NCBI RefSeq assembly: GCF_030812255.1
Contig: NZ_JAUSSH010000015.1
Coordinates: 1-64,000, forward strand
Length of the DNA stretch: 64,000 bases
Direction: 5' to 3'
DNA from: Paeniglutamicibacter psychrophenolicus
GTDB lineage: Bacteria > Actinomycetota > Actinomycetes > Actinomycetales > Micrococcaceae
In this document: positions 36,883 through 39,737 of the stretch, piece by piece
Position numbering within the stretch: the first letter of the stretch is position 1
Layout: every line of letters begins with the position of its first letter
The notes under the pieces: model-generated
Told to the model about the DNA's origin: nothing
The model's input: the letters and a program-made list of their open reading frames with translations, nothing else
Database searches by the model: none
Position numbers and translations under genes: made by a program

Positions 36883-38229
<1,347 letters not shown>

Positions 38230-38260
38230 CAAGCACCGCAGCAGCCGTCGCACGAGACAC

Positions 38261-38318
38261 CAAGGCCGGGGACGGCAAGCATGAACCCAAGGGTTTCTGC
38301 TTGCCGACCCCGGCCTTG
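38261..38318 (+). terminator. gdhA terminator
   Basis: CAAGGCCGGGG pairs with CCCCGGCCTTG, then past an A-A mismatch CGGCAAGC pairs with GCTTGCCG. Located 31 bp after the gdhA stop. Confidence 0.75.
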
Positions 38319-38385
38319 GCGTGTTTGAGACGTTTTGTTTCGCCGGGTCCCGGCGCCCGGTTTGTGGTTTTCGACGGGCCGGGGG

Positions 38386-38391
38386 TACATT
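38386..38391 (+). promoter_or_regulatory. -10 element for the aromatic leader ORF
   Basis: TACATT, 6 nt before the ATG at 38398; a TTGTGG at 38362-38367 could serve as -35 with an 18-bp spacer. Predicts a transcript that starts at or next to the leader ATG. Confidence 0.55.
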
Positions 38392-38397
38392 TCCATC

Positions 38398-38457
38398 ATG
38401 ACTAATCGTTGGTATGCGTATTTTGTGTCGGCTCTGGAGGGGCCTAAGACGCGATAA
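38398..38457 (+). CDS. Putative aromatic amino-acid leader peptide of the DAHP synthase gene
   Basis: A 19-codon ORF reading MTNRWYAYFVSALEGPKTR, with Trp, Tyr, Tyr and Phe clustered at codons 5-9. It lies between the gdhA terminator and the first enzyme of aromatic biosynthesis. Its ATG is 6 nt from a TANNNT -10 element, so it can be translated as a leaderless message. The aromatic codons pair with a downstream segment (38411-38418 with 38461-38468), and a terminator-like hairpin follows. All this fits a ribosome-mediated attenuation leader. Function is inferred; the ORF is too short for homology to prove it. Confidence 0.65.
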   Translation: MTNRWYAYFVSALEGPKTR

Positions 38458-38515
38458 TTTCGCATACCCACCTTCAGAGCCGACAAGGGCCGCAAGCTAT
38501 TGCTTGCCGGCCCTT
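38411..38515 (+). promoter_or_regulatory. Candidate transcription attenuator upstream of DAHP synthase
   Basis: Interleaved complementary segments are visible: GGTATGCG (38411-38418) with CGCATACC (38461-38468), and GTCGGCTCTG (38427-38436) with CAGAGCCGAC (38475-38484). Because they interlock (A-B-A'-B'), the two helices compete or form a pseudoknot. The second abuts a terminator-like hairpin at 38485-38515. The first segment overlaps the Trp-Tyr-Ala codons of the leader ORF, so ribosome position could choose between folds. A strong classical antiterminator was not found by eye. Confidence 0.6.
38485..38515 (+). terminator. Terminator hairpin of the candidate attenuator
   Basis: AAGGGCC-GCAAGC pairs with GCTTGC-C-GGCCCTT (13 bp, one bulged C, TATT loop). 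The downstream sequence is only moderately T-rich (CGCTATTTCC). It lies ~115 bp before the DAHP synthase start. Confidence 0.6.
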
Positions 38516-38630
38516 CGCTATTTCCAAGATAGCGGCCCTGGAGGACTACGGAGACGTGTCAGCGGGGGCCGCATTGAAACCAATGGGCCCCGCCAAGACG
38601 CGCGGGGCAGAAACCGAAAGGCCCCCAGCC

Positions 38631-39737
38631 ATGAGCATCGCAGCCGCCACCGAGACACAGCAGCGCGCCAACACCAATGAACGCGTGCTGGGCATCACCG
38701 AACTTCCCACCCCCGCCGAGCTGCTCGCCGAACTTCCCGCGGGCGACGCCCAGGGATACCGGATCATGCGGGCCCGGCAGGAAGTCCGCGCAGTGCTCTC
38801 CGGGCTCGATGAGCGCCTGCTGGTCATCATCGGCCCCTGCTCGATCCACGACCCGGTTGCGGGGCTTGAATACGCCACCAGGCTCGCCACGGCGGCCAAG
38901 GAGCACCAGGGCGAGCTGCTGGTGGTGATGCGCAGCTACTTCGAAAAGCCGCGGACCACCGTGGGTTGGAAGGGCTTGGTCAACGACCCTCACCTGGATG
39001 GCAGCCACGACATGGCCGCCGGACTGCGTGCCGCGCGCGAGTTCATGCTGGCAGCCAGCAACCTGGGGCTGCCGCTGGCCACCGAATTCCTGGAACCGCT
39101 CAGCGCCCAGTACCTCGCCGACGTGATCAGTTGGGGAGCCATCGGTGCCCGCACCACCGAAAGCCAGACCCACCGCCAACTGGTTTCGGGTCTGTCGATG
39201 CCCGTGGGCTTCAAGAACGGCACCGACGGATCGGTGAAGGTCGCGATCGACGCCTGCCAGGCCGCCGGTGCGCCGCAGTCGTTCATGGGAATCAGTGACG
39301 AGGGACGCACTGCCATCGTGCAGACCGCGGGAAACCAAGACGTCCACCTGATCCTGCGTGGCGGCGCGGACGGACCCAACTTCGCCGCGGAACCGGTGTC
39401 CAAGGCCTCGGCAGCCATGGCAAGCGCCGGCATGAATCCGCGGGTGATCGTCGATGCATCCCACGCGAACTCGGGAAAGTCCCACGTGCGCCAGGGCGAG
39501 GTCATTGCGGAACTGGCCGCCCGGATTGCCTCGGGTGACCAACAGATTGCCGGAATCATGGCCGAAAGCTTTCTGGTCCCCGGCGCCCAGAAGCACGATC
39601 CGGACACCGTTGCGGAGGGAGCCAACGTGCTCGCGGGGCTGACCTACGGCCAGTCCGTCACCGATGCCTGCATGAGTTGGGACACCAGCGCGGAACTGCT
39701 CGAGTCCTTGGCCGCTGCGGTGCGTGCGGCACGCTAG
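38631..39737 (+). CDS. aroF: 3-deoxy-7-phosphoheptulonate (DAHP) synthase, class I
   Basis: 368 residues from the ATG at 38631. Condenses phosphoenolpyruvate and erythrose 4-phosphate, the committed step of the shikimate pathway. Class I (AroF/G/H-like) signatures: LLVIIGPCSIHDP, VVMRSYFEKPRTTVGWKGL, SWGAIGARTTESQTHRQL, GFKNGTDGSVKVAIDA and VIVDASHANSGKSH. A GTG at 38556 would add 25 residues; the ATG gives the usual length and has GAAAGG 9 nt upstream. The putative Trp/Tyr/Phe leader peptide and hairpin immediately upstream suggest attenuation control by aromatic amino acids. Confidence 0.93.
   Translation: MSIAAATETQQRANTNERVLGITELPTPAELLAELPAGDAQGYRIMRARQEVRAVLSGLDERLLVIIGPCSIHDPVAGLEYATRLATAAKEHQGELLVVMRSYFEKPRTTVGWKGLVNDPHLDGSHDMAAGLRAAREFMLAASNLGLPLATEFLEPLSAQYLADVISWGAIGARTTESQTHRQLVSGLSMPVGFKNGTDGSVKVAIDACQAAGAPQSFMGISDEGRTAIVQTAGNQDVHLILRGGADGPNFAAEPVSKASAAMASAGMNPRVIVDASHANSGKSHVRQGEVIAELAARIASGDQQIAGIMAESFLVPGAQKHDPDTVAEGANVLAGLTYGQSVTDACMSWDTSAELLESLAAAVRAAR

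Follow-up and report, generated by a model that had tools for sequence, protein, structure and literature searches.

DAHP synthase controls entry to the synthesis of all aromatic amino acids, and it is an engineering target in actinobacterial producers. In the 64,000-nt stretch of DNA analysed here (the window), a class I DAHP synthase gene (38631..39737, + strand) matches the profiles PF00793 and TIGR00034, the latter with 459.8 bits at a cut-off of 173.2, and is preceded by a short ORF with clustered aromatic codons. The locus raises the question of whether this ORF senses aromatic amino acids and, if so, how the position of a ribosome on it could reach the enzyme. We propose that the region is probably a leaderless mixed aromatic leader-peptide attenuator of the AroR kind, which would relay ribosome position via mutually exclusive helices to the ribosome-binding site of the enzyme. 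Support for the sensor part of this proposal is good; for the relay it comes from co-variation and, in part, from folding. The hairpin that a first-pass annotation had likened to a terminator is probably not what does the work.

The same genome carries a class II DAHP synthase on another contig (G000:C13:74315-75607). A scan found no aromatic leader ahead of the class II gene, so it may be the class I isoenzyme that is regulated. A GTG at 38556 was considered as the start of the class I enzyme and rejected: locus L002 has no matching GTG, and the Shine-Dalgarno sequence and ATG of 38616-38633 are common by eye.

The aromatic leader and its start

The ORF reported by the first-pass annotation, with four aromatic codons within five positions, can be read directly in the sequence. 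It comprises 19 codons (MTNRWYAYFVSALEGPKTR; 38398..38457, + strand, with the ATG at 38398 and TAA at 38455-38457), and its putative sensor codons TGG TAT GCG TAT TTT (38410-38424, + strand; W5, Y6, A7, Y8 and F9) lie inside the block R-W-Y-A-Y-F. As expected of an attenuator, the ORF directly upstream of the biosynthetic gene is short and has many codons for the amino acids that the pathway makes. Its ATG lies 6 nt after the putative -10 hexamer TACATT (38386..38391, + strand), again as first described. The -35 element suggested at the same time fared less well: TTGTGG (38362..38367, + strand), with an 18-nt spacer to TACATT, is present, and by eye TTG(C/T)G occurs near this place in several aligned relatives, but a scan of the window for the sigma-70 consensus returned no promoter at the leader.

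The distance between the -10 box and the start codon is fixed across relatives. In a Micrococcaceae-type set of 86 rows (L012 and L152, from outside the family, among them), all 86 unique upstream sequences have TANNNT with its first base 12-14 nt before the leader start codon; elsewhere between -30 and -6 it occurs at -24 only, in two cases, and a Shine-Dalgarno-like 4-mer precedes the ORF in 4 of the 86. A second set, made up of mycobacteria, Dietzia and kin, has the -10 box at the same distance in 28 of 43 rows, a count in which several leader starts, above all those of Dietzia, were placed too far upstream by the script; a Shine-Dalgarno-like 4-mer was found in 3 of the 43. Given the fixed -10 distance and the lack of a Shine-Dalgarno sequence, the leader looks leaderless, as had been suggested: transcription would be expected to start at or within 1-2 bases of the ATG, and ribosomes would load there.

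The codons themselves are also conserved. Each codon of CGT TGG TAT GCG TAT TTT occurs in 85 or 86 of the 86 rows, with 85 for each of the sensor codons TAT, TAT and TTT, and in the second set TAT and TTT are used in 42 of 43 rows; these rows have a common ancestry and are therefore not independent events. Across 33 long ORFs of the window, TAT accounts for 50 of 325 Tyr codons and TTT for 81 of 534 Phe codons. In the first set, part of this preference may come from pairing of the sensor codons within the leader RNA (R1:R3a, see below). By eye, other leaders make the same choice, which suggests a separate cause, perhaps slower wobble decoding. If the relay proposed below is right, the leader offers a defined and widely conserved target for mutational tests, including of why rare wobble-read sensor codons persist.

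Conservation in relatives had been set beforehand as the test of the proposal, and the leader passed it. A family pattern, defined as R-W-Y-A-Y-F plus the start of the next segment, was found in 170 of 395 genomes of the family and in 14 of its 32 genera. Within a 120-genome family sample, 48 genomes carry a class I DAHP synthase and 46 of these have the pattern; all 46 pattern-positive genomes of the sample are among the 48 with the enzyme. Coordinates were available for 40 of the 46 genomes among the matches listed, and in all 40 the pattern lies directly upstream of the gene. One of the two remaining enzyme-bearing genomes, G072, has a variant leader (NSQWYAYFTSALEGP; L237). At the order level, 14 of 297 genomes match the pattern, one of them outside the family. 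At the class level, 27 of 158 genomes encode a class I enzyme. Of these 27, 22 have an aromatic leader ahead of the gene: the scan identified 21, not counting a spurious match at L173, and L185 was recognised by eye. The five class I genes that lack an aromatic leader by scan all belong to family f35 (L166-L169 and L173) and form a natural control group. A pattern search in family f38 matched 0 of 22, with a spacer range too long for f38 sequences.

Alternative helices between leader and enzyme gene

The leader RNA holds two interleaved complementarities. In the first, R1 (GGTATGCG, 38411..38418, + strand), an arm made of sensor codons, pairs with R3a (CGCATACC, 38461..38468, + strand) in a perfect 8-bp helix over the Trp-Tyr-Ala codons, exactly as previously read. 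The second exists and interleaves with the first as described, with a length of 15 bp including one G-U pair rather than 10 bp: R2 (TGTCGGCTCTGGAGG, 38426..38440, + strand), inside the ORF, pairs with the switch segment R3b (CCTTCAGAGCCGACA, 38471..38485, + strand) in what would be the ON branch. Before R3b is transcribed, the leader was predicted to fold on itself in all 27 representatives of the first set, with R1 paired to R3a and R2 in the tip. The fold of 38398-38469 has -28.0 kcal/mol (z -4.4; none of 200 shuffles was as good), and comparable folds were obtained for L006 (z -6.2) and the mycobacterial L016 (-50.5 kcal/mol, z -4.6), with L007 reaching only z -1.8. When R3a was shuffled, 5% or fewer of the shuffles were equally stable in 26 of 27 representatives and in 6 of 19 representatives of the second set. 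Once R3b is present, R2:R3b usually outcompetes R1:R3a at equilibrium. A hairpin internal to R2 was rejected as an independent conserved element; its cells are paired in 95.3% of cases, yet without covariation.

According to the first-pass annotation there was no strong antiterminator. By eye, no upstream segment that competes for the arms of the downstream hairpin was seen here either; R3b instead has a choice between two partners, which opens a chain of helices reaching the Shine-Dalgarno sequence. Relatives read side by side contain a copy of R2 downstream of the GC-rich hairpin H3 (38485..38515), with GGCTCTGGAGG in the ORF and GGCCCTGGAGG at 38534-38544. As this segment, R2' (CGGCCCTGGAGG, 38533..38544, + strand), copies R2, R3b can pair either with R2 upstream or, through 38471-38482, with R2' downstream (11 of 12 positions). 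R1:R3a, R2:R3b and R3b:R2' are thus mutually exclusive helices that overlap the ORF, a further attenuator feature. R2' is overlapped by a small hairpin, H4 (38516..38534, + strand), whose arms CGCTAT/ATAGCG are read directly and which appears as GCC..GGC in the RNAalifold consensus. Further downstream, R5 (38564..38572, + strand) can pair in two ways: through GGGGCCGC (38565-38572) with 38532-38539, that is with R2', or through GGGGGCC (38564-38570) with GGCCCCC (38620-38626) of the Shine-Dalgarno region (GAAAGGCCCCC, 38616..38626, + strand) over 7 bp. The best duplex of the two regions that contain R5 and the Shine-Dalgarno sequence has -22.0 kcal/mol. The first-pass annotation contains neither R2' nor R5, nor the helix between R5 and the Shine-Dalgarno region. 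Between R5 and the Shine-Dalgarno sequence (38586-38608) lies an extra GC-rich hairpin that could compete for R5; similar hairpins are visible by eye in some relatives of the window's genus.

The four helices of the proposed chain were evaluated by an alignment-free swap test, in which partners are exchanged between species (27 representatives of the 86 rows; 10,000 permutations). All four beat the swaps, with z scores of -5.4 for R2:R3b, -5.3 for R3b:R2', -4.7 for R2':R5 and -4.3 for R5:Shine-Dalgarno, and none of the 10,000 permutations matched them. After removal of the six representatives of the window's own genus, the 21 that were left still gave p ≤0.0004 for the four helices. The control pairings R2':Shine-Dalgarno, R2:Shine-Dalgarno, R3b:Shine-Dalgarno and R2:R5 did not beat swaps (p 0.19 to 0.94), and the control R3b:R5 reached a weak p of 0.025. 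The second set (19 representatives of 43 rows) gave p values of 0.0019, 0.013, 0.0072 and 0.022 in the same helix order; minus Dietzia (17 representatives), R2:R3b (0.011) and R3b:R2' (0.0044) held, and R2':R5 (0.14) and R5:Shine-Dalgarno (0.29) were not significant. A direct pairing of R2' with the Shine-Dalgarno sequence, which the first consensus fold had contained, was dropped as the swaps were unsupportive (p 0.33 and p 0.45).

Against shuffled sequences at the 5% level, R2:R3b stood out in 27 of 27 representatives, R3b:R2' in 20 and R2':R5 in 22. R5:Shine-Dalgarno, the conserved pairing of an upstream segment with the Shine-Dalgarno region according to the swaps, did so in 10 of the 27, and L005, L147 and L150 show little of it. 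The corresponding counts for the second set were 19, 14, 5 and 2 of 19.

Alignment A1 comprises 38 of 46 sequences; L131 and seven sequences of the window's genus were left out, all eight for their long spacer between R5 and the Shine-Dalgarno sequence. The cells of the alignment are paired in 97.5% of cases for R2:R3b, 91.4% for R3b:R2', 89.8% for R2':R5 and 95.8% for H3. Two-sided changes affect 2 pairs in 4 cells for R2:R3b, again 2 in 4 for R3b:R2', 4 in 6 for R2':R5 and 5 in 28 for H3, so that covariation is strong for H3 and modest for the other helices, which vary little. In L012, a propionibacterial bin, one position changes jointly in R2, R3b and R2'. This locus and L152 had been missed by the regular expressions and were added with hand anchors, and the start codons of L127, L131, L044 and L180 were also set by hand. 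Together with the swaps, these changes provide the covariation that had been named beforehand as part of the test.

By eye, the same order of elements in other letters recurs in Mycobacterium, Dietzia, f38, Occultella (L070) and Pseudonocardia (L030), all of which keep R2, R3b, R2' and R5 together with a masked Shine-Dalgarno sequence or start. Also by eye, Mycobacterium has GGCTCCGGG as R2 and CCCGGAGCC as R3b, with R5 and the Shine-Dalgarno region pairing for example as CAGGTGCC/GGCACCTG in L020; in Dietzia L015, R5 (TCACGGCA) pairs with TGCCGTGA over the start codon; and in f38 the pairing is ACGTC/GACGT in L170 and GCGTC/GACGC in L185. L184 and L187 have no H3 between R3b and R2'. Their R3b:R2' hairpin is followed by a tail that is T-rich in L184 and less so in L187, which by eye is a classical attenuator layout with the same polarity.

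Predicted response to a ribosome on the leader

From these elements we propose the following working model. Transcription would start at the leader ATG, where ribosomes would load. In an RNA left alone, R1 would pair with R3a and R2 would be buried, a state supported by folding and conservation. When charged Trp or Tyr tRNA, and perhaps Phe tRNA, runs short, a ribosome stalled on TGG TAT GCG TAT TTT would cover R1 and free R2. R2 would then pair with R3b, leaving R2' free to pair with R5, so that the Shine-Dalgarno sequence would be open and the enzyme made. With plentiful tRNAs, the ribosome would reach the stop codon between R2 and R3b, R3b would pair with R2', and R5 would mask the Shine-Dalgarno sequence. 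The spacings suit the latter branch: R3b starts 15-22 nt (median 16) past the first base of the stop codon and R2 ends 8-23 nt before it, so a ribosome at the stop would sit between the two segments and aid the OFF branch. In the model for M. tuberculosis ilvB1, as described, about 26 nt are masked by a ribosome at the stop codon (PMC13236596). The steps of our model through R2':R5 are supported by conservation, covariation and modelled folding; translation of the leader, stalling and the polarity are what we infer.

Folding of transcripts cut before the Shine-Dalgarno sequence agreed with the first part of the relay. With a ribosome on W, the 27 representatives formed on average 13.3 pairs of R2:R3b and 9.1 of R2':R5; with R2 masked, they formed 6.4 pairs of R3b:R2' and 2.7 of R2':R5. 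Between these two states, 25 of 27 representatives had more R2':R5 with the W stall and one had less. A gain of more than 2 pairs was seen in 23 of 27 native sequences versus 115 of 270 shuffled ones, a background that is not negligible. The window is an exception, with 8.3 pairs of R2':R5 at the W stall versus 8.4 with R2 masked.

The predicted response to each amino acid depends on the footprint. We modelled ribosomes that cover 9, 12 or 15 nt from the A-site codon and counted R2:R3b as kept when at least 5 pairs formed. At these three lengths the helix was kept in 27, 27 and 27 of 27 representatives for the W stall, in 27, 27 and 26 for the first Tyr, in 26, 24 and 13 for the second Tyr and in 24, 13 and 0 for Phe. 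These counts predict that Trp and Tyr stalls turn the switch ON. A Phe stall is predicted to do so if the footprint is short, whereas the longest footprint would lead it to the OFF branch. An earlier footprint model likewise lost R2:R3b for most Phe stalls and made Shine-Dalgarno switching no cleaner. The claim that Trp, Tyr and Phe are sensed together is therefore upheld by the modelled polarity for Trp and Tyr and hinges for Phe on the assumed footprint, which makes the Phe response the least certain of the three.

Clean Shine-Dalgarno switching at equilibrium was expected and was not found among the 27 representatives. In full-length RNAs, the Shine-Dalgarno sequence was freer at the W stall than with masked R2 in 10 of 27, less free in 4 and unchanged in 13; its exposure in the window was 0.54 for W, 0.53 for the first Tyr, 0.23 for the second Tyr, 0.23 for Phe and 0.41 with R2 masked. 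It is thus only co-variation that supports the Shine-Dalgarno step, and since equilibrium folding fails to show it, this last step of the relay would depend on the order of transcription.

A fuller version of the model is tentative, and we would give it less than an even chance: one leader would report the scarcest of Trp, Tyr and Phe through five exclusive helices and an internal copy of a segment, ending in masking of the Shine-Dalgarno sequence rather than in termination; the sensor would have been re-wired between outputs along the Actinomycetes, and the wobble-read TAT and TTT would sharpen the response. Reading several end products with one leader would amount to an OR-type sensor that needs nothing but the order of codons. 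Were the relay correct, it would show how an attenuator that copies its switch segment can turn from a stop on transcription to a block on translation.

Termination, other explanations and related systems

The hairpin that had been proposed as a terminator, H3, lies on the + strand between R3b and R2'. It has 13 bp with one bulge and, as first read, ends 115 bp ahead of the DAHP synthase ATG; its energy is -22.8 kcal/mol (z -5.0), and it is followed by CGCTATTTCC. As no T run follows H3 in the window and no competing upstream segment was seen by eye, its reading as a switched terminator was not supported. The best upstream competitor for its arms, three G-U pairs past a mismatch, was discarded since by eye it is not kept between groups. 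A strong hairpin at about 38260-38319, between gdhA (NADP glutamate dehydrogenase, ending at 38229) and the leader, is followed by CGTGTTTGAG, also without a T run, and hairpins of this type may therefore be normal gene ends in this genome. Termination at H3 is possible, and the hairpin could serve for pausing or as a weak terminator.

Transcription attenuation, with H3 as an intrinsic terminator, the abutting R2:R3b as antiterminator and the downstream helices secondary, is in our view unlikely. H3 is the best covarying helix, and a review describes control by AroR in C. glutamicum as transcriptional (PMC11802643). The tails past H3 are moderately T-rich (4-7 T in 10), and T runs occur in L237 (TTTTTTATG) and L221/L222 (TTTTTTCTTTG) as well as in L164/L165 (TTTTCTCATT). 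L237, L164 and L165, all of genus g21 of the same family, are more T-rich than most. However, in the 8-base windows tested after H3, 83 of 86 rows, that of our locus included, stay below 5 T and 3 reach 5, and H3 is absent from the terminator-like sites of the window scan. A T-run terminator before the gene, as in classical attenuators, is present in L237 and L221 and absent from the window. Nor does an antiterminator overlap a terminator arm: R2:R3b ends at most one base into H3, and although the two have one base in common in the window (38485), this overlap lets both coexist. Termination at H3 would also leave R2', R5 and R5:Shine-Dalgarno unexplained.

It is rather improbable that both outputs operate, with partial termination or pausing at H3 added to the translational relay and control split between RNA level and translation. 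The T content past H3 ranges from weak to strong across the family, R2, R3b and R2' persist, and the R3b:R2' hairpin of L184 with its T-rich tail gives by eye a classical 2:3/3:4 layout of the same polarity; against this, neither hairpin in the window is followed by a T run.

We regard as very improbable a conserved structured RNA, either a riboswitch or a protein site, that contains the short ORF only by accident. The nucleotides are more conserved than the peptide needs and the leader hairpin is long, but the aromatic cluster persists as the peptide changes (WYAYF, YWRF, RRYPYF, WRFYF, YFWF) and the distance from -10 to start codon is fixed. At the gathering score, Rfam matched only a tRNA in the 64-kb window and nothing in 12 loci; at E up to 10 it gave weak matches to unrelated families, all below the gathering score. 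Peptide-sequence dependent arrest of the tnaC type, sensing amino acids, is scarcely credible: the residues past the cluster (ALEGP / APGGA) are conserved, but their codons form R2, which is paired with R3b, and these residues differ between groups where the helix is kept. The conserved leader and its exclusive helices instead favour, as first annotated, an aromatic leader-peptide attenuator of class I DAHP synthase with mixed Trp, Tyr and Phe codons.

E. coli trp and pheA are classical ribosome-mediated attenuators. Our proposed attenuator shares with them and with ilvB1 (PMC13236596) the sensor codons, stalling, exclusive helices and a ribosome at the stop codon that separates segments; their output is an intrinsic terminator, whereas here no T run follows the output hairpin and the chain has two further segments. 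An aromatic leader ahead of a class I enzyme is also the mark of AroR, taken here from its published descriptions, in which the C. glutamicum aroF leader has a Phe-Tyr-Phe cluster (PMC4046766, PMC11802643). AroR is reported to respond to limitation of Phe, which fits our reading, and not to Tyr, which sets it apart (PMC11802643). Two relatives, L242 and L243 (probably Corynebacterium), have the leaders MRNWRFYF and MRMWRFYF, whose W-R-F-Y-F points to AroR given that description; 2 of the 14 genomes asked carry the class I enzyme. By eye, R2, R3b and H3 follow in the same order as in the window, and L243 lacks the R2' copy. Mixed aromatic sensing by one leader, considered unusual in the first-pass annotation, may be less so in view of these two. 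What our analysis suggests in addition to the known AroR kind is the relay to the Shine-Dalgarno sequence.

The LEU element of leuA is similar in that an actinobacterial leader peptide is joined to RNA that reaches the Shine-Dalgarno sequence of the enzyme, and it differs in that the leucine codons themselves pair with the Shine-Dalgarno sequence, in a pseudoknot, whereas further helices intervene here (PMC1262725). The same survey of Actinobacteria (Seliverstov 2005) argues against classical attenuation for leuA; ahead of phenylalanine or tyrosine operons it reports no RNA structures that are conserved (PMC1262725). The leaderless polycysteine uORFs of mycobacteria (Canestrari 2020, as cited in PMC13236596) resemble our leader as short ORFs at the mRNA start before an amino-acid operon, a hypothesis put forward in PMC4633059, and differ in the amino acid, cysteine, and the operon. 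The uORFC-13-1 motif of Acholeplasma aroF likewise has a leader ORF with a Phe codon before a DAHP synthase gene; as described, it is confined to Acholeplasma and environmental sequences, has a ribosome-binding site before the ORF, reads Phe only and ends in a terminator (PMC8632094). In a literature search that covered mainly papers outside subscription, and so gives no proof of absence, we found no description of aromatic leaders in Micrococcaceae or mycobacteria or of the R2' relay.

Aromatic leaders also precede class I DAHP synthase genes in Rubrobacter (L053), another actinobacterial bin (L047), a Polyangiaceae bin (L055) and Dehalococcoidia (L079), with the clusters ERFYYRF, FYERFYYR, FFWFGYW and YYGYWYFF, respectively. 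L053, L055 and L079 have T-run terminators by eye and are apparently classical attenuators.
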